Both the position numbers and the translations under genes were made by a program. Below, one piece after another: positions 43,341 through 56,470 of a DNA stretch of 64,000 nt; position 1 is the stretch's first letter; the number at the start of each line of letters is the position of its first letter. The notes beneath the pieces were generated by a model. It saw only the letters and a list, made by a program, of their open reading frames with translations. It ran no database searches and was not told where the DNA came from. Origin of the DNA: Streptosporangium sp. NBC_01756 (lineage in GTDB: Bacteria > Actinomycetota > Actinomycetes > Streptosporangiales > Streptosporangiaceae); contig NZ_CP109130.1 of the NCBI RefSeq assembly GCF_035917975.1, positions 2,046,001-2,110,000 of the forward strand, read 5' to 3'.

Positions 43341-44072
43341 ATGACCGATGCCTCTTTCCCCGTCAGCGTCAGCGTGGTGGTTCCCGCACTCAACGAAGCC
43401 GCCAACCTGCCCCACGTCTTCGCGACTCTGCCCGCCTGGATCGACGAGGTCGTCCTCGTCGACGGCAACTCCGTGGACGACACCGTCGCCGTCGCCAGAG
43501 CCCTCCGCCCCGGGCTGCGTGTCGTCACCCAGACCCGCAGGGGCAAGGGCAACGCTCTCACCGAGGGGTTCGCCGCGGCCACCGGCGACATCATCGTCAT
43601 GATCGACGCCGACGGGTCCACCGACGGCCGGGAGATCATCGCCTTCGTGACCGCACTGGTCGAGGGCGCCGACTTCGCCAAGGGCTCCCGCTACGCCCCC
43701 GGCGGCGGATCCGACGACCTCAGCCCGATCCGCTCGCTCGGCAACAAGGTGCTCACCATGGTGACCAATCGGCTGTACGGCACCCGCTACACCGACCTCT
43801 GCTACGGCTACAACGCCTTCTGGGCCCGTCACCTCGACGTCATGGCCCTCGACTGCGACGGCTTCGAGATCGAGACCCTGATGAACGTCCGCGCCGCCCA
43901 GGCCGGCCTCGTGATCCGCGAGGTCCCCAGCCACGAACGCAGCCGCATCCACGGCGTCAGCAACCTGCACGCCGTACGGGACGGACTGCGCGTGCTGCGG
44001 ACCATCCTGCGCGAGCGCACCCGCCGTGCGGACCGGCCCGTCACCATCCTGCAGGAGCCCGCCACCGCCTGA
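43341..44072 (+). CDS. GT2-family glycosyltransferase
   Basis: This 243-residue protein has a GT-A fold. It opens V-V-V-P-A-L-N-E-A-A-N-L and V-V-L-V-D-G-N-S-V-D-D-T, and carries the DxD-type motif V-M-I-D-A-D-G-S-T-D. K-G-S-R-Y follows near residue 115, typical of dolichol-phosphate-mannose/poly-prenyl-type transferases. It lacks membrane helices, so it acts as a soluble or peripheral sugar transferase. The acceptor is unknown. Confidence 0.9.
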   Translation: MTDASFPVSVSVVVPALNEAANLPHVFATLPAWIDEVVLVDGNSVDDTVAVARALRPGLRVVTQTRRGKGNALTEGFAAATGDIIVMIDADGSTDGREIIAFVTALVEGADFAKGSRYAPGGGSDDLSPIRSLGNKVLTMVTNRLYGTRYTDLCYGYNAFWARHLDVMALDCDGFEIETLMNVRAAQAGLVIREVPSHERSRIHGVSNLHAVRDGLRVLRTILRERTRRADRPVTILQEPATA

Positions 44073-44169
44073 TTCAGGCGGACTGTAACAGCCTCGGGTC
44101 ATGCGATCACGCCGCGAACCAGGCGATCAGGGAGTGGAAAGTACTCGCGCGATCTCACCCTGAGGCTAG

Positions 44170-44190
44170 TCTAGGTCTAGACAGACCAGA
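44170..44190 (+). promoter_or_regulatory. putative toxin-antitoxin operator
   Basis: The inverted repeat GGTCT-AGAC-AGACC (44174-44187) with overlapping CTAG/AGAC half-sites lies 17 bases before the antitoxin start. This suits autorepression by the Phd-type protein. Confidence 0.5.
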
Positions 44191-44203
44191 CAGAAGGTGA
44201 CTC

Positions 44204-44455
44204 ATGAGCGAATGGCAGGTTCAAGAGGCGAAACAGCGCTTCAGCGAGGTCGTACGGCGTGCGGTGAGCGAAGGCCCCCAAGTGGTCACCCGACATGGGG
44301 AGGAGGTGGCCGTCGTCATCGACATCGCCGAATACCACCGCATCAAAGGCGACGCCCCCGACTTCAGGCAGTTCCTTCTCGCCGACCCCGACTGGGATGA
44401 CGACCTCGAATTCCCACGGAACCAGGACCTTCCCCGAGAGATCGACTTCGGCTGA
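44204..44455 (+). CDS. Phd/YefM-family antitoxin
   Basis: This 83-residue protein has the Phd DNA-binding N-terminus (Q-V-Q-E-A-K-Q-R-F-S-E-V-V, then V-V-T-R-H-G-E-E-V-A-V-V-I) and an acidic C-terminal tail that would wrap the toxin. It overlaps the toxin gene by one base (TGATG). It both neutralises the PIN toxin and represses the operon through the upstream inverted repeat. Confidence 0.92.
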   Translation: MSEWQVQEAKQRFSEVVRRAVSEGPQVVTRHGEEVAVVIDIAEYHRIKGDAPDFRQFLLADPDWDDDLEFPRNQDLPREIDFG

Positions 44456-44877
44456 TGGGCATCGGCTATCTGCTCGACACGAACGTGGTCTCCGAAGTAC
44501 GCAAGAGGAACGGCAGCTCCCAGGTCAAGGACTGGATCAGCGCAACGCACGGACCCACTCTCCATCTCAGCACCCTGACGGTCGGCGAGATCCGCTGCGG
44601 AGTCGAACGCTGTAGACGCCGAGACCCCGTACAGGCAACCTCTCTGGAGCGCTGGCTCCACGACCTTCACCGGCAATTCGGTGATCGCATCGTCCCCGTC
44701 ACCTCGGAGGTCGCCGAGGAGTGGGGGCGGCTGAACGCCGTACGCCCGCTCCCGACGGCGGACGCTCTGATCGCCGCGACGGCCCGGGTGAACGGCTGGA
44801 CCCTGGTCAGCCGGAACGTCAAGGACTTCGATGGCACGGGGGTTTCCGTCGTCAACCCGTTCGATGCGCCGAACTGA
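44455..44877 (+). CDS. PIN-domain toxin, VapC/FitB-like
   Basis: This 140-residue PIN ribonuclease has the acidic residues of the active site: Asp8 in Y-L-L-D-T-N, Glu near 43 in L-T-V-G-E-I-R, Asp near 102 in T-A-D-A-L-I-A-A-T-A and a C-terminal N-V-K-D-F. VapC-type toxins cleave tRNA or other RNA when freed from their antitoxin. It ends just before the 3' fragment of the split DUF427 gene, outside the inserted segment. Confidence 0.92.
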   Translation: MGIGYLLDTNVVSEVRKRNGSSQVKDWISATHGPTLHLSTLTVGEIRCGVERCRRRDPVQATSLERWLHDLHRQFGDRIVPVTSEVAEEWGRLNAVRPLPTADALIAATARVNGWTLVSRNVKDFDGTGVSVVNPFDAPN

Positions 44878-45058
44878 TCAGGCGAACTTCGACTTCGGCC
44901 GGTCCTGCAGGACTCCGTCGATGTAGACGTCGACCTTTTCGTCGTAGAAGGAGACCAGCCCGGCGATGCGGCGGCTCTCCTCCAGCGGGGTCCGGTAGGA
45001 CCACGCCAGATCCGCGCGACCGTTCACCGACCAGTATTCGGCCGTCCCCTTGTACGGG
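44878..45058 (-). pseudogene. 3' fragment of a split DUF427 gene
   Basis: This segment encodes the last 57 or so residues of a DUF427 protein (K-G-T-A-E-Y-W-S-V-N-G-R-A-D-L-A onward), almost identical to the C-terminus of the intact copy at 46113. Homology stops abruptly at TACGGG (45053-45058). The missing 5' part is found at 54048-54597 and begins at the same point with the same TACGGG. The gene was therefore broken by insertion. An ATG at 45066 gives a short open frame by chance. Confidence 0.9.
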
Positions 45059-45123
45059 TAAAGCATTCATTGAGGCTGTCATTTCAAACGGTGCTTATTC
45101 CGAGGAGGCGATCAACATCAGAC

Positions 45124-45651
45124 TCAGCCGAACAGGTCGACCAGCACCGCCCATGCTCTGGGGGAAGGCTCCTCCCCGGGGAAAAACTGCGCACACAGGC
45201 GGAGCGCGTCCTCCGCGGAGACGACGTTGGCCAGCTCTGCCAGGTGTCGGAGATCGTCCACATCGCGTGTTCGTGCCGCCATCGCCTTCATCGCGAAGAT
45301 GTGCTCGGGTGAAGCCGCCATCACGCGGAGGCCCGGATGGTCGAAGACTCTTCGCTTCCCCGGATCGTCTTTCCCAGAAATATAGACGCTGGCCTGCTCG
45401 TTCAACCACCATGGAGGCAAGCCGAGGTCCTCAGCGACCCGGCGGGCCTCTTCCAGAACCACTCCGTGCGGTACGAAGAGCGCGTCCACGTCACGGGTGA
45501 CTCGGACCGCGTCGTAGGCGAGCGCCATTGCGGCTCCGCCCACGACGAAGAGATCCGCGACGACGCCCCGGCGCATCAGCCGTTCCCCCAGCGCGGTGAA
45601 AGCCCGCTCAAGCTCCGCCCTGCCAAGCAGTCCGTCATCTGTCCCGCTCAT
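45124..45651 (-). CDS. nucleotidyltransferase-like protein (DUF6036/AbiEii-type)
   Basis: This 175-residue protein has a nucleotidyltransferase core: L-F-V-V-G-G-A-A-M-A-L near residue 36 and V-T-R-D-V-D-A-L-F near 52, where the D-x-D-type acids bind metal. The later part is helical (M-K-A-M-A-A-R-T-R-D-V-D-D-L-R-H-L). Such stand-alone enzymes act as toxins that modify tRNA or as resistance enzymes. Its start overlaps the stop of the upstream gene by 4 bases (ATGA), as in toxin-antitoxin operons. Confidence 0.78.
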   Translation of the reverse strand: MSGTDDGLLGRAELERAFTALGERLMRRGVVADLFVVGGAAMALAYDAVRVTRDVDALFVPHGVVLEEARRVAEDLGLPPWWLNEQASVYISGKDDPGKRRVFDHPGLRVMAASPEHIFAMKAMAARTRDVDDLRHLAELANVVSAEDALRLCAQFFPGEEPSPRAWAVLVDLFG

Positions 45652-46028
45652 GCCGCCTCGAGATCCTTGCTCGAAAGGTAGACACCGTGCTTACGGAAGG
45701 CGGCAGGGGCCCAGACCAGCGCATCCACGCGCTGGCTGGCCAGCTCAGCGGGGAACCAGGGGTGGCGCAACACCCGCAGCGCCGTCCATGGAGGCGGGGC
45801 AAGATCATGCTTCGCGGCGAGATGCTCCGCGAGCGCGGCCAGCAAGGCATCCCACCGTTCGTCGCCCACAGATTCCGGCTCGGATCTGAGCAACGCCGGC
45901 TGGGCATCGGACGTCTCCCAGCGATATTCCTCGAGGAACTCCCACACGAGCTTCCAGCGAATCTTTTCGTTGGAATTCGCTTTCATGCGCGCGGCGAGAT
46001 CGACGAGTGTCATCGGGCGATAAACCAT
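45648..46028 (-). CDS. partner of nucleotidyltransferase, putative antitoxin
   Basis: This 126-residue protein is helical and Trp-rich, with an N-terminal M-T-L-V-D-L-A-A-R-M-K segment, an acidic middle and a W-T-A-L-R-V-L-R-H-P-W-F motif near residue 80. No DNA-binding motif is certain. Translational coupling to the nucleotidyltransferase gene and its first position in the operon suggest an antitoxin or regulator (inference). Confidence 0.6.
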   Translation of the reverse strand: MVYRPMTLVDLAARMKANSNEKIRWKLVWEFLEEYRWETSDAQPALLRSEPESVGDERWDALLAALAEHLAAKHDLAPPPWTALRVLRHPWFPAELASQRVDALVWAPAAFRKHGVYLSSKDLEAA

Positions 46029-46112
46029 GTCATCCCTCCCGTTCGCTCAGACAGAGTTCGATGCTATCGCTACATGCCAGCCCGGTTCAGGCCAGACGCC
46101 GCAGGTCGCGAG

Positions 46113-46841
46113 TCAGGCGAACTTCGACTTCGGCCGGTCCTGCAAGACTCCGTCGATGTAGACGTCGACCTTCTCGTCGTAGAAGGAGACCAGCCCGGCG
46201 ATGCGGCGGCTCTCCTCCAGCGGGGTCCGGTAGGACCACGCCAGATCCGCGCGACCGTTCACCGACCAGTATTCGGCCGTCCCCTTGTAGGGGCAGTGGG
46301 TCACGGTGCCGGTGGGGGTGAGCAGGTCCAGGCGGATGTCGGTCTTGGGCAGGTAGTAACGCGGTGGCAGACCGGTCTCGAACAGGATCCGGGGGCTGCG
46401 GGAGTCGGCGACCGTCACCCCGTCGACCTCGACGCGCACATGGCGGGAGGAGGGCAGCACGTCCACCCGGGTGTAGGGATCACGGGCGTGCACATAGACC
46501 TCCTCGTCCTCCTCGAACCAGGCGTCCACCGCCTCCCACTCGAACCGCACATGATCGCGCAACTCCTCGATCGGAGAGCCGGGATAGGCCAGCGCCGCGT
46601 CGGCCACACCTTCCACGTCGAACAGCACCGCCTCACCACGGCTGGGCGAGTACACGGTCCGGCCGCTGGGCTTCAACTCGACGGCGACATCCTGCCGGGG
46701 GAAGTAGTAGGTCGGGTAGTAGGGCACCTCCCAGACCAGCAACGCCCGGACGGTGTCGGCGATCACCCGACCGCCCAGGAAAACCCGCACCCTCTTGGCG
46801 GCCCGCTCGATGCGGACCCGCCCACGCGTGATCGGCTCCAT
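46113..46841 (-). CDS. DUF427 protein with two tandem domains
   Basis: This protein of 242 residues starts at ATG 46841 (ATG 46865 is an in-frame alternative). It contains two DUF427 domains. The first has Y-Y-F-P-R-Q-D-V near residue 50. The second has Y-Y-L-P-K-T-D-I-R near 170, followed by C-P-Y-K-G-T-A-E-Y-W-S. It is the only intact one of three copies in the window. The other copy is split at the borders of the inserted segment and differs by only a few bases. The family has no assigned function. Confidence 0.88.
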   Translation of the reverse strand: MEPITRGRVRIERAAKRVRVFLGGRVIADTVRALLVWEVPYYPTYYFPRQDVAVELKPSGRTVYSPSRGEAVLFDVEGVADAALAYPGSPIEELRDHVRFEWEAVDAWFEEDEEVYVHARDPYTRVDVLPSSRHVRVEVDGVTVADSRSPRILFETGLPPRYYLPKTDIRLDLLTPTGTVTHCPYKGTAEYWSVNGRADLAWSYRTPLEESRRIAGLVSFYDEKVDVYIDGVLQDRPKSKFA

Positions 46842-46914
46842 GACCGCGCCAACCCAGACCACCATCGAACTATTCCGATAGCCACTCCGAAGTGCCCGTA
46901 CGGCCTGCGGGTCG

Positions 46915-47260
46915 GCTCCCGTTATGCGGTGGGGTACTCAGCTCGACGTCCGACCGGTCTACGTCTCCACCGACCTGGACGGCGGGACATCCCGCTGCGG
47001 CAGTGGGCTCACATGCTCGGCTACCGAGAACACTTCTCCACCAAGAGCCGCCACTACTCCACCACGCTCGGGACACTGCGCCAGGCCCGCGCCGACTACC
47101 GCGCCGAACAGGCCCGGATGACCCTCGGTCTCCCGGCTCCTGACGATCGGAAGACACTCACGGTCTCCGAATGGTGCTACGGCGGAAGCGGCCACCGGTA
47201 CGGCGAACCGTTCTGGGCCGAACTCGCCCGGCAGCGCATCGCCACGCCCGCAGGATCACC
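46915..47260 (+). pseudogene. decayed RepSA-type replication initiator
   Basis: One frame reads R-W-G-T-Q-L-D-V-R-P-V-Y (about 46924). Another, further on, reads R-Q-W-A-H-M-L-G-Y-R-E-H-F-S-T-K-S-R, then Y-S-T-T-L-G-T-L-R-Q-A-R-A and V-S-E-W. Both belong to the C-terminal half of AICE/SLP1-type RepSA initiators. The stretch between is deleted and frame-shifted, and the N-terminal half is missing, so replication function is lost. It marks an AICE origin of this DNA. Confidence 0.75.
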
Positions 47261-47462
47261 CGGGAACGGGAACAGCTCGACTCCGGCTGACGGTGGTCTC
47301 ATCCATGCGCCAAGTGGTGTGACCGGCGGAATGCCGTAGACACCCGAAGGGCTCGCGGAGCGAGTTCGGCCGGCGACATCACGGCGGAAAGCTCATCCTC
47401 TCGCCACGCCGGATGGTCATGATGGGAGCCCTGGATTCCGTGGCTGTCCCTACTGGCCCGGC

Positions 47463-47723
47463 TTACTGAGAAGCACCGGGGTTCGCTGCTCGCTCCTCTG
47501 CGGTGGTCGGGAACGATCCGACGCCTTGCGAGGTCACGATCCAGCCCTCATCGCGGAGGATCTTCATGGCCTTGCGGACGGTTGGCCTGGAGACCTGAAA
47601 CTCCTCTTCCATCGCAACCTCGGAGAGCAGGGTCTCGACGTCGTACTCGCCCGTGTCGATCCGCCTGCGGACCTCCTCGACGATCTGCGACCACTTGGGC
47701 TTGCGTGGGTCGTACCTGAACAT
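47463..47723 (-). CDS. GntR-family winged-helix regulator
   Basis: This 86-residue protein starts at ATG 47723 (in-frame ATG 47774 is possible). It is a single winged helix: W-S-Q-I-V-E-E-V-R-R-R-I, E-V-A-M-E-E-E-F-Q-V-S-R-P-T-V-R-K-A-M-K-I-L and G-W-I-V-T-S-Q-G-V-G-S-F. There is no ligand domain. Short GntR proteins like this regulate excision and replication genes of AICEs. It is divergent from the small genes at 47832 and 48037, with palindromes in between. Confidence 0.85.
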   Translation of the reverse strand: MFRYDPRKPKWSQIVEEVRRRIDTGEYDVETLLSEVAMEEEFQVSRPTVRKAMKILRDEGWIVTSQGVGSFPTTAEERAANPGASQ

Positions 47724-47765
47724 GATCCCAAGGCTAGATATGCCTTGACCTGCAAAGATAGAAGC

Positions 47766-47824
47766 AGACGTCATATGACGTTAACTAACGTCTATTTACA
47801 GGTACTTACATGTGCTCCTATGAT
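47766..47824 (+). promoter_or_regulatory. overlapping palindromes and a leaderless-type promoter
   Basis: ACGTCATATGACGT (47768-47781) is a perfect palindrome. It shares its last ACGT with the near-palindrome ACGTTAACTAACGT (47778-47791). TTTACA (47795) and TATGAT (47819) are spaced 18 bases. Transcription would begin about at the ATG 47832, that is, leaderless. The palindromes overlap the region where the divergent GntR gene's promoter would be. Confidence 0.55.
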
Positions 47825-47831
47825 AATGGTC

Positions 47832-48050
47832 ATGGCCGACTGGAACATCCCCGAGTTCGATGTCACCCGGTGCCCCGACGGCACTTGGGAGGCCCGGTTC
47901 AAAGGAACGCCAGCCGAGGACCCTGCGGACGCGACTGCGGGCACCTTCCGGTACCTGGAACTGCTCTGCTGCGCCAAGCGGATCGGCCGGTCCCTCCGCG
48001 AGGCCTGCGACCGCAACTCCTCATCGGGGACCCGCCGTGATCACGGCTGA
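47832..48050 (+). CDS. AICE-type small conserved protein
   Basis: This 72-residue protein (M-A-D-W-N-I-P-E-F-D-V-T-R) starts at ATG 47832; ATG 47820 and 47826 are in frame. It has two Cys in tandem (L-L-C-C-A-K-R) and a basic C-terminus. Small genes of this kind occur beside GntR regulators in actinobacterial integrative elements. No function is assigned. The next gene overlaps it by 14 bases. Confidence 0.65.
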   Translation: MADWNIPEFDVTRCPDGTWEARFKGTPAEDPADATAGTFRYLELLCCAKRIGRSLREACDRNSSSGTRRDHG

Positions 48051-48324
48051 TCAATGCCTGAGCCCACACGTGGCGATGGCCCAACGCGACCATGTGCGGC
48101 TGGAATGGCGCAAGCCGTACCGGACTCCCGATCGGGTGCGGCCGATGGCATGGACCTGCCTGTGCAGGACGACGATCTACGAACTGTGCTCCGGCGGCGG
48201 CCAGGCGTTCATCCGCCGGACCGTCCAGCTCGACGGCGACGCCACGGTGCACGAGTCCCCGCGCTGGCCGGTCAACGAAGCCCGGACCATCTGGACGGCC
48301 CTGCTGTCCGGAGGGGTCCGATAG
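48037..48324 (+). CDS. AICE-type small conserved protein
   Basis: This 95-residue protein starts at GTG 48037, overlapping the previous gene by 14 bases. It has several Cys (C-L-S-P-H, then W-T-C-L-C-R-T-T) and Y-E-L-C-S-G-G-G-Q-A-F-I-R-R. It may bind a metal or nucleic acid. Its stop codon is followed after 3 bases by one arm of a hairpin that the IS256-family element has split. Confidence 0.65.
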   Translation: MITADQCLSPHVAMAQRDHVRLEWRKPYRTPDRVRPMAWTCLCRTTIYELCSGGGQAFIRRTVQLDGDATVHESPRWPVNEARTIWTALLSGGVR

Positions 48325-48350
48325 ACGGGCGTGGCGGCGTGGGATCTGAA

Positions 48351-49772
48351 GGTCACGTCCAGCGAAGTGGTGTATGAGTTGATCTCCGCGTGATCCTGTT
48401 TCTGCAGGTTAAGCGGTAAGTGTCTGTGGAATGGGTTTCTGCTGCGGTGTGTCGCTCGTGATGACCCGCATTCGAGCTTTCGCCAAGACATCCAGTCCCA
48501 TGTAGCGGCGGGCCTCGGTCCACTCATCGGTCTGCTCGGCCAAAACCGCACCAACGAGACGGACGATCGAGCCGCGGTCGGGGAAGATCCCGACCACGTC
48601 GGTGCGGCGGCGGATCTCCTTGTTCAACCGTTCTTGGGGATTGTTCGACCAGATCTGCTTCCAGATCTCCCGGGGGAAGGCGGCGAAGGCCAGCAACTCT
48701 TCCCGGGCGGCGTCCAAGTGCTCACACGCGGCCGGATACTTGGCCTCCAACGCTTCGATCACCCAGGCGTGCTGGGTGCGCACCTGCTCGGCGGTGGGCT
48801 GGTCGAAGATGGTGCGCACCAAGGTCGCCACCCACGGCTGCGCCGACTTCGGAACCGTGGTGAGCAAGTTCCGCAGGTAGTGGCTGCGACAACGCTGCCA
48901 GGACGCGCCCGGCAGGGTCGCGCCGATCGCCCCGACCAGCCCGGTGTGGGCATCGGAGACGACCAGTTGCACCCCGCTCAGCCCGCGAGTCACCAGGCCA
49001 CGCAGGAACGCCAGCCAGCCGGCGCCGTCCTCGGCCGAGGTGACCTCCAGCCCCAAGATCTCCCTGTTGCCGTTGGCGTTGACCGCGGTGGCGACCAGCA
49101 CGTGCACGTTGATGATCCGGCCGCCTTCGCGCACTTTCTGCGTCAGCGCGTCCAGCCACACGAACGCGTACGGCCCGGCGTCCAACGTCCGGGTGCGGAA
49201 GGCCTCCACCTGGGCGTCCAGGACCTTGGCCATCTCGCTGACCTGGCTTTTGGAGATGTGTTTGATGCCGAGCTGCTCGACCAGTTTGTCCACCCGCCGG
49301 GTGGAGACGCCGAGCAGGTAGGAGGTGGCCACCACGCTGATCAGGGCTTGTTCGGCTCGGCGGCGCCGTTCCAGCAGCCACTCGGGAAAGTAGGAGCCCG
49401 AGCGCAGTTTCGGAATGGACAGCTCGACGGTGCCGGCCCGGGTATCCCAGTCGCGGATGCGGTAGCCGTTGCGCCGGTTGGTCCGCTCGTCGCTACGCGT
49501 GCCGTAGTGCGCTCCGCACAGGCCGTCGGCCTCGGCTGACATCAACGTCTCGGCCATGGTCTTCACCATGGATCGCAACAGATCCGGGTCGCCGTGCTCG
49601 ATCTGCTCCGTCAGCCAGCTTTCGGGGTTCACACTGTTGGGTGCGGCCATCGCTTTCTTCTCCTTCGATCTTGTTACTTCGCACTCGAAGGATCACGCGA
49701 TGGCCGTCCTCATTTCACGGCGCCACGCCCACTACCTGGGGAAACTCGTACACCACCTCCGTGGACGCAACC
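48351..49772 (-). mobile_element. IS256-family insertion sequence, 1422 bp
   Basis: The 30-base terminal inverted repeats (48351-48380 and 49743-49772) match at about 24 positions, with CGTCCA and GTGGTGTA conserved. A perfect 8-base target duplication GATCTGAA flanks it (48343-48350 and 49773-49780). One intact transposase gene lies inside. Everything needed for a recent insertion is present. Confidence 0.95.
48409..49650 (-). CDS. IS256-family (Mutator-type) transposase
   Basis: This 413-residue DDE transposase is intact. It has the IS256 landmarks: D-G-L-C-G-A-H-Y near residue 41, R-N-G-Y-R-x-R-x-W-D-T-R-A-G-T-V-E-L, F-V-W-L-D-A-L-T (first Asp near 167), L-V-V-S-D-A-H-T-G-L (second Asp near 235) and N-P-Q-E-R-L-N-K-E-I-R-R-R-T (catalytic Glu near 340). 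It catalyses transposition of its own element. Confidence 0.96.
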   Translation of the reverse strand: MAAPNSVNPESWLTEQIEHGDPDLLRSMVKTMAETLMSAEADGLCGAHYGTRSDERTNRRNGYRIRDWDTRAGTVELSIPKLRSGSYFPEWLLERRRRAEQALISVVATSYLLGVSTRRVDKLVEQLGIKHISKSQVSEMAKVLDAQVEAFRTRTLDAGPYAFVWLDALTQKVREGGRIINVHVLVATAVNANGNREILGLEVTSAEDGAGWLAFLRGLVTRGLSGVQLVVSDAHTGLVGAIGATLPGASWQRCRSHYLRNLLTTVPKSAQPWVATLVRTIFDQPTAEQVRTQHAWVIEALEAKYPAACEHLDAAREELLAFAAFPREIWKQIWSNNPQERLNKEIRRRTDVVGIFPDRGSIVRLVGAVLAEQTDEWTEARRYMGLDVLAKARMRVITSDTPQQKPIPQTLTA

Positions 49773-49808
49773 GATCTGAAGGGGCGGCGCCGCCACGCCT
49801 TCGAAAGG

Positions 49809-49836
49809 GCCAGGGGTCAACCGGGTGACCCCTGGC
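49809..49836. terminator. hairpin terminator
   Basis: GCCAGGGGTCA pairs perfectly with TGACCCCTGGC over a 6-base loop, just beyond the IS and the split hairpin. Confidence 0.75.
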
Positions 49837-49906
49837 CATGGAGACGTACCTGTTGCAGTTCTGGCCCGTAAGCTCTTGACCTTCTGTTCCATAGCTGTTC
49901 CGTAGG

Positions 49907-50025
49907 CCCCAAACGATGTCGACGGCCGTTCAGACCAGTTCGCCGCGCAGCTCACCGGCGACTCGGCCGTTCAGAACCGTCCAGCTCAGCCCATTCTCGT
50001 CTGACCCGATGGCTCCCAGAGATCG
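49907..50025. repeat. imperfect repeat, copy A
   Basis: About 120 bases beginning CCCCAAACGATGTC resemble 51294-51410, with conserved stretches including GTTCGCCG and TGGCTCCC. It directly abuts the 3' end of the 50027 gene. Confidence 0.55.
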
Positions 50026-50026
50026 C

Positions 50027-50476
50027 TCATTCCCGCCCTAAGATCGGGAAGCTCTTCTCCAATGCTGTAAGGGCATCCACGAGTGGTGGGATGTCCGTCT
50101 GGTCCAAGCCCTCGATCACAAAGTGAAGGGTGTTCCACATCCCAGGGTCGTCAGCTATGGTTCCGAAGATCAACAGAGAACCTGTGGGGCGACATTCAAT
50201 GGTGAGTTCCACCCAATGCTCACGGGAGGAAAGGATGGCCCTCCCCTTGACTTCGGCATAGATCCGCTCCAGGCCCGCGCGGAAGCTATGCAGTTCCTCA
50301 GTGCGAAGACCTGCGGCGATCTCGGCGATGAATCCCCCAACCTGTACTCGGACCGGAGAGATGAGCCGGTTCCCATCCCAGAAGTCGGTACAGCCAGGGT
50401 GCATACGACCAAGAACACGAATCATCACATGATCGGACTGCACGCCTCTACCGATGATGATCTCGGCTCGATTCAT
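50027..50476 (-). CDS. WapI/DUF6228-like immunity-type protein
   Basis: This 149-residue protein is taken from ATG 50476; the longer frame reaches 50566. The fold has alternating strands, with F-R-A-G-L-E-R-I-Y-A-E-V-K-G near residue 70, an E-L-T-I-E-C strand, and a C-terminal block F-V-I-E-G-L-D-Q-T-D-I-P-P-L-V-D-A-L. That block is typical of WapI-like immunity proteins to polymorphic toxins. No toxin gene is adjacent, so it may be an orphan immunity gene. The family call is tentative. Confidence 0.5.
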   Translation of the reverse strand: MNRAEIIIGRGVQSDHVMIRVLGRMHPGCTDFWDGNRLISPVRVQVGGFIAEIAAGLRTEELHSFRAGLERIYAEVKGRAILSSREHWVELTIECRPTGSLLIFGTIADDPGMWNTLHFVIEGLDQTDIPPLVDALTALEKSFPILGRE

Positions 50477-50649
50477 ACACCCATGATCCAGGAGAGGACA
50501 CATGCCCGATCCACAATCACCAGTTTGGAAGGCGTCCCGTCCTGATCGACTGAACTGCCGCGACACTGGTCACGGTGGGTTTCACGCTATCCGCCATCCC
50601 ATGGCTCCCTATGAATGACTGTCCCTACTGGCACGCTTGTGGCACGTGA

Positions 50650-50973
50650 TCAGCCGTCGATTCTCCAGGTTTCCCCATAACAGAGTGGCGGCCCGTATCT
50701 GTAAGTCTTCCCTGTCTTGGTGCTGATCGCAATGAGACCGTCGTCTGCCTTTGGTTGCTGGCACATGGAGTCCGGCGCACCGATGCCGGTGCCTTGTTCT
50801 GGTGCCAAGGTGGCGAAGGGCCCCTTGTTAAGCTTCCACTTCACTGTGACGGTGTCTTGTGTGCCGTTAACGATTTGGAGCTGTTCCTCGTCGCGTGGAG
50901 TACAGGCGACGAGAAGGAACACGACTATGAGCGCTAAACCTGTGGCACGCCGGAGTGTTTGGGAGGCTGTCAT
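50650..50973 (-). CDS. small lipoprotein
   Basis: This 107-residue protein has a signal peptide ending in the lipobox L-L-V-A-C. The mature part is a small beta-rich domain (I-V-N-G-T-Q-D-T-V-T-V-K-W) with two later Cys (S-M-C-Q-Q and P-L-C-Y) that may form a disulphide. Base composition is lower in GC than the flanks. Family not recognised. Confidence 0.65.
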   Translation of the reverse strand: MTASQTLRRATGLALIVVFLLVACTPRDEEQLQIVNGTQDTVTVKWKLNKGPFATLAPEQGTGIGAPDSMCQQPKADDGLIAISTKTGKTYRYGPPLCYGETWRIDG

Positions 50974-51130
50974 GAGGGTCCGCTATGCCCTGATCGCATG
51001 GGGCAATCATACGGATGCGAGGTCGCCGTGCCATACCTCTCCGTTCCCCCTTGCTCTCCGGGAGAGCCTGCAGATCGTACACATGCAAAAAACCAGGACA
51101 GAGTACGAATTGACCTAGCCTTGGCGGATT

Positions 51131-51168
51131 GCCCTGCAGGATTCGAACCCAGAACCTACGGATTAAAA
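51131..51168 (-). pseudogene. tRNA-Lys-like 3' fragment (attachment scar)
   Basis: On the minus strand the sequence reads from an anticodon-loop-like TTTTAATCC through TGGGTTCGAATCC to GCAGGGC, as in a tRNA-Lys(TTT) 3' half. The T-stem is imperfect, as if one base were lost. The 5' half is missing and unrelated sequence begins at the anticodon loop. This is where tyrosine-recombinase att sites end. Confidence 0.5.
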
Positions 51169-51293
51169 TATCAATCTTGCGCCGTTCCGGACAGTTCAAT
51201 GCAGTTCAGAGGATGTGTATGGTCCATTCCGAACGGCCTGGGACGGCCTGGAACTGCAACGAGCGGGCTCTGTTGGCCCTTCCAATCCATAGA

Positions 51294-51410
51294 TCCCCAA
51301 ACGATGTCCAGGACCGTGCAGAACCGTTCGCCGTGCTGCTCATTGGGACTCCGGTCATTCAGATCCGCCCAGCCCAGTTCGTGATTGTCCGCCCAGGTGG
51401 CTCCCGGGAG
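51294..51410. repeat. imperfect repeat, copy B
   Basis: A diverged copy of 49907-50025 starting CCCCAAACGATGTC. It lies near the Lys-like tRNA scar. No gene is supported between 50974 and 51521. Confidence 0.55.
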
Positions 51411-51521
51411 ATGGGTAGGACAGCTACTCGGTCGGCGTGCCTGCAGGCGCGGGGACGACCAACCTTCCATGATCATGGGCCAAGGCTGGCGGTATACGCC
51501 GCGCACCATCATGATCAAGCC

Positions 51522-52100
51522 ATGACGACAAGTGCGCGATTCGATCGGATGGAGACCGAGCGGCTCATCATGCGACGCTGGCAGGAGTCCGACCGGGCAT
51601 CGTTCGCCGAGTTGAACGCCGACCCCGAGACCATGCGGTTCTTCCCGAACACGCTGGACCGCGCGGCCAGCGACGCGATGATCGAAATGATCGAGACGCG
51701 TTTCGACCGGCAAGGGTTTGGATTCTGGGCACTGGAAGTGGCCGCAACCGGCATGTTCATCGGGTTCACCGGCCTCAACCCGCTGCCCGACGGCGTGCCC
51801 GGCGCCGGCGGCATGGAGGTCGGCTGGCGGCTGGCCAAGCACGCCTGGCATCACGGATACGCCACCGAGGCGGCTCGGGCCGCGCTCAGCGTCGCCTTCG
51901 ACGACATGGGCCTGCCCGAGATCTGGTCCATGACCGCGGTCCTCAACGAACCGTCCCAGGCTGTCATGCGGCGGCTGGGGCTGACGGAGACGAACCGGTT
52001 CGACCACCCCCGGATCCCGCCGGGCGATCCGCTCCGGCCCCAAGTGGCCTATCACGGCACCGGCCCGAATGAGCAAGAGCCCGAAGGGTTCTTGGCTTAG
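51522..52100 (+). CDS. GNAT acetyltransferase, RimJ/RimL type
   Basis: This 192-residue protein starts at ATG 51522. It has the RimJ/RimL-like pattern: M-E-T-E-R-L-I-M-R-R-W near residue 8, G-F-W-A-L-E, V-G-W-R-L-A-K-H-A-W-H-H-G-Y-A-T-E-A-A (acetyl-CoA loop) and L-N-E-P-S-Q-A-V-M-R-R-L-G. Members acetylate protein N-termini or small amines. It is cargo in the inserted segment. Confidence 0.9.
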   Translation: MTTSARFDRMETERLIMRRWQESDRASFAELNADPETMRFFPNTLDRAASDAMIEMIETRFDRQGFGFWALEVAATGMFIGFTGLNPLPDGVPGAGGMEVGWRLAKHAWHHGYATEAARAALSVAFDDMGLPEIWSMTAVLNEPSQAVMRRLGLTETNRFDHPRIPPGDPLRPQVAYHGTGPNEQEPEGFLA

Positions 52101-52167
52101 GAAGGTTACTTCAGAAGCTGACGAAGACCCACGGTCGGGAATCCATCCCTGACTTGGGTCTTTGAAG

Positions 52168-52212
52168 TGGAGCGGGTGACGGGAATCGAACCCGCGCTGT
52201 CAGCTTGGGAAG
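52168..52212 (-). pseudogene. tRNA-Gly(CCC) 3' half (attachment scar)
   Basis: On the minus strand this segment is an exact tRNA-Gly 3' half. It runs from CTTCCCAAGCTGA (anticodon CCC loop and 3' stem) through the T-arm GCGGGTTCGATTCCC to acceptor CACCCGCT and CCA. The 5' half is absent, and the break falls in the anticodon loop. This is the expected att site left by a tyrosine-integrase element using this tRNA. It is not a functional tRNA. Confidence 0.85.
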
Positions 52213-52407
52213 TCTCTATTGCATCTGATCGCTGACCTAGCGAAACGCTGACCTGCGGGAGAGGGCTCCGATTACCCGTAGGCCCTCGCGAGTCCCCTCG
52301 CTGACCTTCCGGACGGGCACGCAGCAGGCACGGTTGCGCGCCACGTTCTCGATGTCTCTCTATGCTTTGTGAACTGACATGCGCCGGTACGTCCTGGATG
52401 AGGCCAA

Positions 52408-53115
52408 GTGAATAATTCGACGATCCTTCCGCTCGATGTCCTACTTGACGATCTCGCCAACCTGAAGGCAAACAAGCGCCTTGTTTTGATCGGTGTGGAT
52501 GGAGGGGGAGGTTCAGGAAAGAGCACGCTGGCCCGCGCCCTGGTTGCCCACCTCTCCCAGGCCAGCCTGGTCCACATCGACGACCTGTATCGGCCCTCCT
52601 CCTCGCCTGAACGTCGACCCGATCACCCCTGGTACGGGACGGTTGCGGGATTCTTTGACTGGCGCCGGCTTCAGCATCAGGTCGTCGATCCGTTGCGGGA
52701 TGGGCGCGAAGCAGCTTACGAGCGATACGACTGGCACACCGACTCGCTTGCCGAGACGCTGACCGTACCGGCTCGGGGATACGTCGTCATCGAAGGCATC
52801 TCGGTCACCCGTGAAGAGCTCCGCGAGGCCTACGACCTGCGCGTGTGGGTGGAGACTCCCTATGAGGTGCGACTGGCGCGCGGCATCGAGCGAGACGGCG
52901 AGAGCGCCCGCGATATGTGGGAGAAGGAGTGGATGCCCGCCGACGCTGAGTATGCACAGGCCACGGCCCCACACAAGCACGCCCATCTGGTGCTCGATGG
53001 TGCTGCTGTGCTGGGTGATGTCACAACCGAGATCGCCGTTACTTGGGCAGATCCTCAAGTGCTTCGACTCGTGCACGAAAGGGCGGGAGGAAGCAGCAGC
53101 ACTTATGGTGCGTAA
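52408..53115 (+). CDS. uridine-kinase-like P-loop kinase
   Basis: This 235-residue protein starts at GTG 52408. It has an intact Walker A, G-V-D-G-G-G-G-S-G-K-S-T (about 29-40), V-H-I-D-D-L-Y near 59, and V-V-I-E-G-I-S at the Walker B/lid position. It belongs to the uridine kinase/phosphoribulokinase-like group of small-molecule kinases. The substrate is unknown. It is cargo in the inserted segment, near the tRNA-Gly scar. Confidence 0.82.
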   Translation: MNNSTILPLDVLLDDLANLKANKRLVLIGVDGGGGSGKSTLARALVAHLSQASLVHIDDLYRPSSSPERRPDHPWYGTVAGFFDWRRLQHQVVDPLRDGREAAYERYDWHTDSLAETLTVPARGYVVIEGISVTREELREAYDLRVWVETPYEVRLARGIERDGESARDMWEKEWMPADAEYAQATAPHKHAHLVLDGAAVLGDVTTEIAVTWADPQVLRLVHERAGGSSSTYGA

Positions 53116-53230
53116 TCATGGACACCTCGGTCCCCGAGGGCTCGCTAAGGCAAGATGTCCGCTGTTCGGTGGCTGGTGTCAACGGCGGCTGAATCTTGAC
53201 CTCCTGGCGTCGCGCGGGTTCTAGGGCGGT

Positions 53231-53286
53231 ATTGACTCGTCACCACGTTGCCACCGACATTGACTCGTCACCACGTTGCCACCGGC
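53231..53286 (+). repeat. 28-base direct repeat, two tandem copies
   Basis: ATTGACTCGTCACCACGTTG and 8 further bases occur at 53231-53258 and again at 53259-53286 with a single difference. They may be remains of a transposon end. Confidence 0.85.
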
Positions 53287-53304
53287 GCCCAGGAATCAGG
53301 GTGT

Positions 53305-53538
53305 TCAATCCGCCAGTTTCTTGGCTTCGTGTTCGCGAGCGTGCTGAGCTTCCTGGTCCAGGAGCATGATGCCGTCAGGACGGCCACCCATGCGAGCGAG
53401 ACGTGCACCCCTCAAGAGGCTTGATGGTACGTGCATCCAGATCCGACTGGGCTCGCGTCTGGTCTTCAGTATGTCCCGGATCCAGATCGCGGCCGCCCCA
53501 CCGAACACCACAACAAGGATCCATGTGAATGCATTCAC
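53305..53538 (-). CDS. small membrane-anchored protein
   Basis: This 77-residue protein starts at GTG 53538 with a strong GAGGAGGAG ribosome-binding site. One N-terminal membrane helix (about 3-20) is followed by a basic cytoplasmic tail with H-A-R-E-H-E-A-K-K near the end. No family was recognised. Confidence 0.55.
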   Translation of the reverse strand: MNAFTWILVVVFGGAAAIWIRDILKTRREPSRIWMHVPSSLLRGARLARMGGRPDGIMLLDQEAQHAREHEAKKLAD

Positions 53539-54047
53539 TGTGTTTCTCCTCCTCGACCGTTCTGTGTAGAGGGGCGCGAAACATTCACCCGCTACCGCTG
53601 ACAGTAAAAGACTTGTGGGGCCGGTGCGAATGTCAGACACCAGCAGGGCTGGAAGGAATTGAAGCCGGCGGTCGAAGCTCTCGCCCCTGAGCGGTGGTGT
53701 GGCCCCAATGCGGCGGCCAACAGTTGGGTACGGCGTGGGAGCAGTGCGGCGGGCGGCCCGAGTGCGGCCCCGGCCGTGACCGGCCCCCAGGCCGCATGCG
53801 CGGCCGGGATCCGCGACGCTGGGCCGTGCGGCGCCGCGCCGCGCCGCGCCGCCGCCTTGACTCTGTAGAGAAGATTGTCGCGGTTCAAGATCAAGTTATC
53901 TGGACGAGCACTCGGAACACGAGTCAACCAGGGACAGAGAACGACGTCCGTCCATGTCAGGGCGGGAACAGCGATTCAGCCGAGTGGAGTCGGCGATCAT
54001 AACGCCAGAAGAAGATCTTCGAAGAAAGGTTGCCTGAACGCACCTGC
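53539..54047. other. intergenic region near right junction
   Basis: About 500 bases hold no supported gene. It includes a run of GCGCC iterations (about 53828-53852). From 53861 there is a roughly 50-base stretch resembling the sequence just after the L,D-transpeptidase stop at 57396. Confidence 0.4.
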
Positions 54048-54597
54048 TACGGGCAGTGGGTCACGGTGCCGGTGGGGGTGAGCAGGTCCAGGCGGATGTC
54101 GGTCTTGGGCAAGTAGTAACGCGGTGGCAGACCGGTCTCGAACAGGATCCGGGGGCTGCGGGAGTCGGCGACCGTCACCCCGTCGACCTCGACGCGCACA
54201 TGGCGGGAGGAGGGCAGCACGTCCACCCGGGTGTAGGGATCACGGGCGTGCACGTAGACCTCCTCGTCCTCCTCGAACCAGGCGTCCACCGCCTCCCACT
54301 CGAACCGCACATGATCGCGCAACTCCTCGATCGGGGAGTCGGGATAGGCCAGCGCCGCGTCGGCCACACCTTCCACGTCGAACAGCACCGCCTCACCGCG
54401 GCTGGGCGAGTGCACGGTCCGGCCGCTGGGCTTCAACTCGACGGCGACATCCTGCCGGGGGAAGTAGTAGGTCGGGTAGTAGGGCACCTCCCAGACCAGC
54501 AACGCCCGGACGGTGTCGGCGATCGCCCGCCCAGGAAAACCCGCACCCTCTTGGCGGCCCGCTCGATGCGGACCCGCCCACGCGCGATCGGCTCCAT
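54048..54597 (-). pseudogene. 5' fragment of the split DUF427 gene
   Basis: This segment encodes the N-terminal two thirds of a DUF427 protein, closely matching the intact copy from its Met to T-V-T-H-C-P, where it stops at TACGGG. It complements the 3' fragment at 44878-45058. Near the start (about 54522-54532) 4 bases are missing compared with the intact copy, which also shifts the frame, so decay continued after the split. Confidence 0.9.
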
Positions 54598-54645
54598 GAC
54601 CGCGCCAACCCCCATCACACGCGGCTATTCCGTCGAGCGAAATCG

Positions 54646-55989
54646 TCAGCCCGTCACGGAAAAGTTTCTTCTGACCGGCCTGGGAACGGGCGCCAGCGGG
54701 ATCTCGTGATCACCACGCCAATGGTGCCCGGGGAACGCCGGACGTCCATGGTCGCCATGCCAGTGCTGTCCGGGGAACACGGGACGTCCATGGTCGGCGC
54801 GCCCGTGGTCGGCGCGTCCCTGTCCCTGTTTCGAACGGGGTCTGGTTGGCGTCATTGTCGGACTCACGGTCACCGTCGGACTCACCGTGGGACTCACGGT
54901 CACGGTCGGACTCACCGTCGGACTCACCGTCACCGTCGGGCTCACCGTCACGGTCGGACTCACCGTGGGACTCACCGTCGCCGTCGGACTCATCGTGGGG
55001 CTCACCGTCGCCGTCGGGCTCACCGTCACGGTCGGACTCACCGTGGGACTCACGGTCACGGTCGGACTCACCGTGGGACTCACGGTCACGGTCGGGCTCA
55101 CCGTGGGACTCACGGTCACGGTCGGGCTCACCGTTACGGTCGGGCTCACCGTCGGACTCACCGTCACCGTCGGACCCACCGTCGGACTCACCGTCACCGT
55201 CGGACCCACCGTCGGACTCACCGTCACCGTCGGACTCACCGTCGGCACTGCGCAGTGTGAGGCGGTGATGATGTTGCGATCGAGGCTGACCTGACCGTTA
55301 CGGGCGAGTACCCGGCCGGCGACGGTGGCGCCCGTCGTCACCGAAATCGAGGTCAGGGCAAGGATGTTGCCCACGAAGGTGGAGTTCGTTCCCAGCGTCG
55401 CCGAGCTGCCCACCTGCCAGAAGACGTGGCACGCTTGAGCACCGCCGATCAGGTTGACGCGGCTGGCCGATCCGGTGATGAGTGTGGAGGCGATCTGGAA
55501 GATGAAGACGGCGCTGGGATCGCCCTGAGCATCGAGGGTGAGCGTACCGGTCAACCCGAGTGAAGATGTGGACGCGTACAGGCCGGGGGTGAGCCTCCGG
55601 CCGACGAGGTCGCCCGAAACACTGGTGGCCGGGGTTCGGCCGGCGGCGTCGTCGTACGCGATGGTCAAGTCGGACTGCGCCTGAAGTGCCACGGCATCGG
55701 CCTTGTACTGCACCCCGTTCACCCTGCCGGGAGGGAACCCGGTCACCGCGCTCCCCGGGCTCACCCCCAGGTTCCCGTTGATGATGCTGGGACCGATGTT
55801 GGTGACCGTGGCCCCAGCCAGAACCGCGAAACTGCGGGCGGTTCCGAGACCCACCGGAGCTTCTTGCGCGACACTCACGCTGGACTGCACGACAACGAGC
55901 ACGCCTACCACCGGGATGAGCACCAAACCCACCGCCAGCCGGAAGGATCCAGCCGATCTGGAAAAGGTGCGCTTAAGGATAAATTTCAT
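54646..55989 (-). CDS. DUF3494 ice-binding-like secreted protein with TVSP repeats
   Basis: This 447-residue protein starts at ATG 55989 with a signal peptide or anchor (about 15-42). The DUF3494 beta-solenoid (about 48-240) is marked by F-A-V-L-A-G-A-T-V-T-N, G-D-L-G/N-L-G-V-S-P-G and V-F-W-Q-V-G-S-S-A-T-L-G. Residues 246-380 are a long Thr-Val-Ser-Pro repeat, and the end is basic and His/Gly-rich. DUF3494 members bind ice or act as adhesins. The repeat is probably a cell-wall-spanning or O-glycosylated stalk. Confidence 0.87.
   Translation of the reverse strand: MKFILKRTFSRSAGSFRLAVGLVLIPVVGVLVVVQSSVSVAQEAPVGLGTARSFAVLAGATVTNIGPSIINGNLGVSPGSAVTGFPPGRVNGVQYKADAVALQAQSDLTIAYDDAAGRTPATSVSGDLVGRRLTPGLYASTSSLGLTGTLTLDAQGDPSAVFIFQIASTLITGSASRVNLIGGAQACHVFWQVGSSATLGTNSTFVGNILALTSISVTTGATVAGRVLARNGQVSLDRNIITASHCAVPTVSPTVTVSPTVGPTVTVSPTVGPTVTVSPTVSPTVTVSPTVTVSPTVSPTVTVSPTVSPTVTVSPTVSPTVTVSPTATVSPTMSPTATVSPTVSPTVTVSPTVTVSPTVSPTVTVSPTVSPTVTVSPTMTPTRPRSKQGQGRADHGRADHGRPVFPGQHWHGDHGRPAFPGHHWRGDHEIPLAPVPRPVRRNFSVTG
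54861..55250 (-). repeat. coding tandem repeat (TVSP stalk)
   Basis: About 390 bases of 12- and 18-base units built on CTCACCGTCGGACTCACGGT encode the Ser/Thr/Val/Pro stalk of the DUF3494 protein. Codon choice within units is highly uniform, so slippage may change length between strains. Confidence 0.9.
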
Positions 55990-56470
55990 TTAGCGAATCA
56001 TTCTCCCAAAGAAGGACATCAACTACATCCCGGGGCGTCACATCCACAGAAGGCGAAGACGTCCAATTGCGCGGGTCCCCAACTCATCGGACGTGCTTCG
56101 CGGAGCGATCGGCAGCTCATGAAGCCCGAGAGTCCTCCCATGACCAGGCACGTTACCCGGAGACATCGGCAATAGTGGACACCGACCGTTAAAACGGAAA
56201 ATAAAAATAGCTCAATTATCGACCCTGGCGCGCATATCGGATACTTTTTATGCTTTTCCTGCATTTGGCCATCTTGCTGGCCACAGCCACAGACACCAGC
56301 AGAACCGTTGAAAACGCGCATCGGCGGGCTTCGGACCGCCGGACACGAAGTCCGGCGAGCGACACGAGCCGGAAACCTGGTGATTCTTTGCCTTCATCAA
56401 GGGCAAGTGATACTCATTCACGGTTTTCTACGGTGATATACCTGAAACACTCCCGCGAGCCAGAATCTGC
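55990..56470. other. intergenic region, no gene supported
   Basis: About 480 bases between the divergent DUF3494 and transpeptidase genes. An AT-rich patch near 56190-56250 may hold promoters. An open frame through 56250-56470 lacks coding character. Confidence 0.35.

Follow-up and report, generated by a model that had tools for sequence, protein, structure and literature searches.

The 64,000-bp stretch of Streptosporangium sp. NBC_01756 DNA analysed here (the window; contig NZ_CP109130.1, positions 2,046,001 to 2,110,000) comes from a 9.0-Mb genome consisting of a single contig (G000). It contains a DUF427 gene in two pieces, separated by a 9-kb block that carries a complete copy of the same gene and, next to that copy, an overlapping pair of genes. 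The features on which the argument turns are the following, in window coordinates.

44878–45058, minus strand: left piece, the 3′ end of the split DUF427 gene (181 bp, from the stop codon to TACGGG)
45124–45651, minus strand: DUF6036/AbiEii-like nucleotidyltransferase of 175 amino acids (aa), toxin-like (Pfam PF08843, PF09970, and PF19502 above cut-offs)
45648–46028, minus strand: partner gene of 126 aa, overlapping the start of the nucleotidyltransferase gene, antitoxin-like from its position only
46113–46841, minus strand: intact DUF427 gene, 242 aa (PF04248, E 4e-51), with an additional in-frame ATG upstream at 46865
54048–54597, minus strand: right piece, the 5′ part of the split DUF427 gene (from TACGGG to ATG), carrying a 4-bp deletion

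The first-pass annotation of this DNA had proposed that the two DUF427 pieces are complementary and both end at TACGGG, and that a near-identical complete copy lies within the inserted DNA. Alignment to the intact copy confirms both points. The pieces match adjacent parts of 46113–46841, the left one over 181 nt at 98% (2 of 176 sites differ) and the right one with 9 substitutions in 550 aligned bases, and TACGGG is found at 45053–45058 and again at 54048–54053. The hexamer is not fixed, as it reads TAGGGG in the intact copy and in a second Streptosporangium genome (G001). It had also been claimed that removal of 45059–54053 restores the gene. The halves do abut, but the right piece lacks 4 bp that are present in the intact copy and in the four other species covering this place (G006, S. 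carneum; G014, S. subroseum; G011, S. saharense; and G007), so the capacity to encode a whole protein is lost even when the halves are joined.

Over the coding part, 344 of 351 positions are identical between the intact copy and the right piece, whereas upstream of the start the identity drops to 28 of 45. The latter value is no better than the identity found in this region between species (22–31 of 46). Because the coding parts differ by 1–2% and the flanks upstream of the start by 38%, we infer that the coding parts have been homogenised. Either gene conversion between old copies or the subsequent substitution of the intact gene by that of a close relative would explain this. The left piece and the intact copy differ at 2 of 176 sites, whereas 11 of 176 separate G001 from G000. 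At most of the sites where the intact copy (46113–46841) departs from the two pieces, it is the intact copy that has changed, mostly from G to A on the top strand.

Uninterrupted locus and age of the split

The left piece directly adjoins a toxin-antitoxin gene pair of another kind.

44204–44877, plus strand: Phd/YefM-type antitoxin and PIN-domain VapC toxin genes, vapBC (PF02604, PF01850, TIGR01552)

A check for an uninterrupted locus in related genomes, suggested at the outset, gave a clear answer. In S. carneum (locus L043), the DUF427 gene is unbroken and runs into vapBC (L043 9084–10528), with L043 9084–9826 continuing through window 45058–44176. The DUF427 protein is matched in at least 272 of 327 family genomes, with full-length relatives widespread, which makes the gene an old one that is normally whole. 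S. carneum and three Microbispora loci (L048, L075, L083, L097) have vapBC in the same tail-to-tail position beside DUF427, of which it is an old neighbour. vapBC also lies tail to tail with a different gene, named PaaK-like below, in two other genera. The possibility that vapBC is itself a general inserter was considered and dropped, as four vapBC loci elsewhere (L199, L202, L209, L210) have no flanking repeat.

Both junctions of the split recur in other Streptosporangium species. The left junction is found in G001 (L039 8833–9029), where it is followed by ∼94 bp of homologous insert, continuing past a 1-kb insertion. This insertion (L039 9030–10026) is an element lying ∼20 bp past the junction, with an apparent 8-bp target duplication. 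The right junction is found in G004, with homologous block sequence as far as 53772.

53772–54047, no strand assigned: right end of the block, adjoining the right DUF427 piece in G004 too (L042 49–732 corresponds to window 54471–53772)

Within this right end, 53862–54047 is present in only 2 of 250 family genomes, G000 and G004. In G004, only ∼53 bp of the left piece remain, and they adjoin sequence equivalent to position 49843. In G005, the nucleotidyltransferase pair precedes 39 bp of a DUF427 3′ end, which on its far side joins vapB. Because G001 shares the left junction and G004 the right one, the split predates the divergence of these Streptosporangium species, with later losses that differ between them. 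Identity to G000 over 3 kb of flank is 94% for G001, 91% for G005, and 90% for G004, compared with 85–88% for G006, G007, G011, and G014; the clade of G000, G001, G005, and G004 is defined by this flank identity and not by a tree. An assembly fault is an unlikely source of the split structure, given the single contig and the presence of the junctions in other species.

The gene pair, its left end, and a second host gene

The left piece and the intact copy are 1054 bp apart (45059–46112), and this interval holds the two overlapping genes. Neither of the ORFs (open reading frames) called in it has a recombinase match in Pfam, PADLOC, or NCBIfam. The nucleotidyltransferase scores above the cut-offs of PF08843 (5.5e-7) and PF19502 (1.4e-6), and it matches AbiEii of PADLOC weakly (E 8e-4). 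It has no match in phages, and the 31 plasmid records that it matches are all below 60% identity. As in AbiE-like/DUF6036 gene pairs, the nucleotidyltransferase gene has its partner beside it, and does so in 27 distinct loci. The pair is probably a toxin-antitoxin cassette.

The same order is found at another host gene. In G072 and G100, which belong to two other genera, vapBC and a 3′ fragment of a PaaK-like gene are followed by the same gene pair and then by a full PaaK-like gene. The name (phenylacetate-CoA-ligase-like) reflects an NCBIfam PaaK match (E 4e-15) far below the model cut-off and weak PDB matches, with none in Pfam. The fragment matches the full copy over 325 bp at 89% in G072 and over 324 bp at 99.7% in G100, and G108 retains a 57-bp remnant of it. 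The cassette-free state, a single whole PaaK-like gene, is seen in G124 and G058, with vapBC adjoining (partly deleted in G058); accordingly, the 324 bp present twice in G100 are present once in each of these. The order is changed in G144, which has a partner-gene remnant, the 324-bp gene end, the left end described below, vapBC, and the full gene. In G072, a further 3′ fragment of the PaaK-like gene, ending CCGGGAGAACCTCAATCGATGC, lies upstream of vapBC. The left piece, the gene pair, and the intact copy form a recurrent unit.

Two features near the PaaK-like sites were set aside. A tyrosine-recombinase-like inverted repeat noticed by eye at the junction (ATGTTCT-CCGGGT-AGAACAT) is not conserved at DUF427, and a serine recombinase in G072 lies ∼5 kb off, beside what by eye is a truncated reductase frame, and is not linked to the cassette.

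The insertions at the two host genes also have similar left ends.

45056–45076, plus strand: left end of the insert, including the last GGG of the host gene, resembling the left end at the PaaK-like gene

A 21-bp motif derived from the PaaK-like site alone matches 16 of 21 positions here, a score that no other of the 127,960 positions in the window, counting both strands, attains. The G001 junction scores 15, its last bases being broken by the 1-kb insertion, and the vapBC unit in G144 carries an exactly identical left end. Allowing at most 1 mismatch, a pattern built from these very sites was found 6 times in 345 genomes of the order, always at these junctions, while a reversed control pattern was found at one place. 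The left end is therefore rare and known at two host genes only. When assessed by shuffled local alignment its similarity is modest, being reached by 9 of 2000 shuffles, and the other nucleotidyltransferase loci in this test gave no consistent left-end match.

Flanking repeats were scored across gene-pair loci by one fixed test, in which a direct repeat had to be 30 bp or longer and to have a copy no further than 250 bp from either side. Sorting 38 rows by genome place gave the 27 distinct loci, after L142, L143, L170, and L177, in which one gene is missing or the two are too distant, had been excluded. Six of them are flanked, at 5 sites, as G072 and G100 share one; the others are G000, G008 (425 bp at 87%), G052 (31 bp), and G193 (49 bp). 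Automatic sorting by sequence, which merged G072 and G100, gave 26 loci and 5 flanked. As a control, 10 of 4160 random placements in 104 loci were flanked, or 6 of 3480 without the nucleotidyltransferase-bearing loci, so that such repeats are in excess round the gene pair; the loci overlap in part, so these placements are not independent. Three sites beyond DUF427 and PaaK-like show flanking repeats only. The second nucleotidyltransferase locus of G001 was left out of the count, its repeat being a dispersed element.

Explanations of the split

The reading that we prefer, with a probability of roughly 0.55, is that a toxin-antitoxin-like cassette inserted with duplication of the 3′ end of its host gene, that the coding copies were later homogenised, and that the right piece, which has pSAM2-like remnants beside it, is the displaced half. 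In an ancestor of several Streptosporangium species, DNA with the nucleotidyltransferase pair would have entered DUF427 at TAC/GGG, leaving the 181-bp gene end beside vapBC and a complete DUF427 copy directly adjoining the cassette, so that function would have been kept. The cassette would be mobile and would carry or duplicate a gene end, and the 5′ piece at 54048 would be the other half displaced by the same event, not the product of a second event at the same site. Gene conversion would later have evened out the differences between the halves and the intact copy. For the joining, it would be enough if a break, or a site-specific cut at GGG, had set off homologous exchange through the gene end. 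Because both halves end at the same 6 bp, TACGGG in each, a single breakpoint and hence a single event is favoured, and we rate one event for the split somewhat above two. More generally, the flanked sites suggest that gene pairs of this kind settle in a gene while its end is either duplicated or brought in with them.

The first of two alternatives offered originally was that an element carrying a DUF427 copy entered the native one by short homology. The shared 6-bp breakpoint, the S. carneum locus, and the divergent upstream flanks (28 of 45) fit this alternative, although what is informative is a unit of less than 9 kb. A gene targeted by its own copy, remarked on at the outset as unusual, is no isolated case but part of a pattern of gene-end-duplicating insertions that recurs at the PaaK-like gene. 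The structure is of interest mainly because it is recurrent, and it would extend a known kind of gene mobility.

Several observations weigh against cassette insertion as we describe it. Fragment, cassette, and full gene occur at the PaaK-like sites without a displaced 5′ piece, which weakens the one-event view and makes a further assumption necessary to explain the right piece at 54048. By the same repeat test, 21 of the 27 gene-pair loci are unflanked, the G108 remnant among these. The partner has no match in Pfam, PADLOC, or NCBIfam and so fits no antitoxin family known to them. At both DUF427 and the PaaK-like gene the copies start matching exactly at the stop codon, which is unexpected for a random target duplication, and the G008 repeat continues ∼257 bp beyond the stop. 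Finally, both cassette sites with a matching left end adjoin vapBC, now or in relatives, which this reading does not explain.

There is also a broader scheme, which we consider tentative and on balance unlikely: two unrelated toxin-antitoxin modules, VapBC and the DUF6036 pair, may be cargo of one integrase-less cassette family, characterized by the 21-bp left end (GGGTAgArCATgAgTTGAtGC), a GGG site in the 3′ part of the host gene, and a replacement gene end. Its units would stack or reorder (G100, G072, G144) and leave the host gene unbroken, the window being such a unit whose host gene also keeps a displaced 5′ half. A doubtful alternative is ordinary site-specific integration of a 9-kb circle (45059–54053) with its own DUF427 copy and a TACGGG core, the integrase being lost later. 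It would account for both halves ending at the same 6 bp, TACGGG in each as opposed to TAGGGG in the intact copy, and it fits the age of both junctions and the RepSA fragment in the block (described below). The joined block ends also give a weak inverted repeat round GG (11 of 19), but this score is not significant, being reached by 0.9% of window positions before any correction for the several centres and spacings tried. No integrase is found among the block ORFs scanned (47844–48325 lay outside the scan), and the circle alone does not explain why the PaaK-like gene has the same order and left end.

Two successive steps, the cassette with its 3′-end duplication and then an upstream insertion (pSAM2-like remnants) that duplicated the 5′ part and by chance ended at TACGGG, seem quite unlikely to us. 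The first step would be the structure seen at the PaaK-like gene, and the second 3′ fragment in G072, upstream of vapBC, indicates that the site there has seemingly been used twice; however, unless the site is preferred, it is improbable that a second random breakpoint in a gene of 730 bp would hit these 6 bp again. We regard as very unlikely a chance rearrangement in which the gene was broken first and an intact DUF427 was later acquired from another strain by recombination, with the nucleotidyltransferase pair as a bystander. The copies do differ less (2 of 176 and 9 of 550) than G000 and G001 (11 of 176), as expected of a late arrival, and the region is a graveyard of mobile DNA, but G005 already has the gene pair beside the DUF427 3′ end, and the left end recurs at another gene.

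Some integrative elements restore the 3′ end of their target gene. The arrangement favoured here resembles theirs in having an intact gene at one end and a displaced 3′ fragment at the other, but differs from it in the lack of an integrase among the ORFs scanned, in the ∼1.05 kb between the repeats, and in the two target genes of related cassettes. A RepSA fragment is what the block has in common with pSAM2-like integrative elements of actinomycetes, which usually target tRNA genes, but it holds remnants only and, again among the scanned ORFs, no integrase.

Insertion with a long target duplication has been reported for restriction-modification genes, a report that PMC3031569, PMC1643837, and PMC3874152 trace to Nobusato et al. 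(2000); the duplications are described as long and variable, of the order of 100 bp in PMC3874152. By these accounts, the likeness lies in a selfish module of two genes flanked by direct repeats of a piece of the host gene, with no transposase in the unit and a single repeat copy in cassette-free relatives. Indeed, the 181 bp are present twice in the window and once in S. carneum, with no transposase or integrase among the two ORFs scanned between the repeats. By the same accounts, the differences are that the module here is a nucleotidyltransferase/partner pair (once VapBC) and not a restriction-modification system, and that, at two host genes, the repeat extends from the stop codon to GGG, with a left end common to both. 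For toxin-antitoxin systems, PMC3874152 speaks of plasmids, prophages, and integrons. The pdif modules of Acinetobacter plasmids are likewise described as small toxin-antitoxin-bearing modules whose order shuffles without a recombinase of their own; they lie on plasmids between XerC/D sites, whereas the repeats here are gene ends on chromosomes and no dif-like site was seen. A literature search, with most subscription journals outside its coverage, returned no paper on insertion of a toxin-antitoxin module with a long target duplication. If our reading is correct, a small toxin-antitoxin module, moving without a transposase and supplying a second end for the gene it enters, whether by duplication or as cargo, could settle in conserved genes at no cost and would be transmissible by homologous exchange, its spread being testable by copies of gene ends, and the form of mobility reported for restriction-modification genes would extend to toxin-antitoxin-like modules.

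The rest of the block and its surroundings

The remainder of the block contains three further recognizable features.

46920–47339, plus strand: stretch with a C-terminal fragment of a RepSA replication initiator, a pSAM2-like remnant (PF20199 positions 360–434 of 438; NF041486 349–432 of 443)
47463–47774, minus strand: GntR-type regulator, 103 aa (PF00392)
48409–49650, minus strand: IS256-family transposase, internal to the block (PF00872, NF033543)

All three lie upstream of the intact gene, in what is debris from mobile DNA. The IS256 gene is kilobases away from both insert ends, and the insert is not bounded by ends of this insertion sequence with a short target duplication. A serine-integrase reading of the junction was rejected, the weak inverted repeat being all that spoke for it. 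A tRNA target was likewise rejected, as the window has no tRNA by ARAGORN, and only two (in L041 and L148) were detected across 15 neighbouring loci. Rfam gives nothing at gathering level within 44000–56000.

By eye only, 51129–51170 and 52171–52205 resemble tRNA 3′ halves (Lys and Gly), and perhaps are attachment-site scars of lost integrative elements. A 26-bp sequence is repeated exactly, 28 bp from start to start, at 53231–53284. The segment 53690–53860 is a noncoding interspersed repeat, found in 16 of 16 Streptosporangium genomes at 66–92% identity and mostly several times per genome. Beyond the right piece, 54646–55989 encodes an ice-binding-like protein (PF11999) with a long TVSPTVTVSPT repeat tail.

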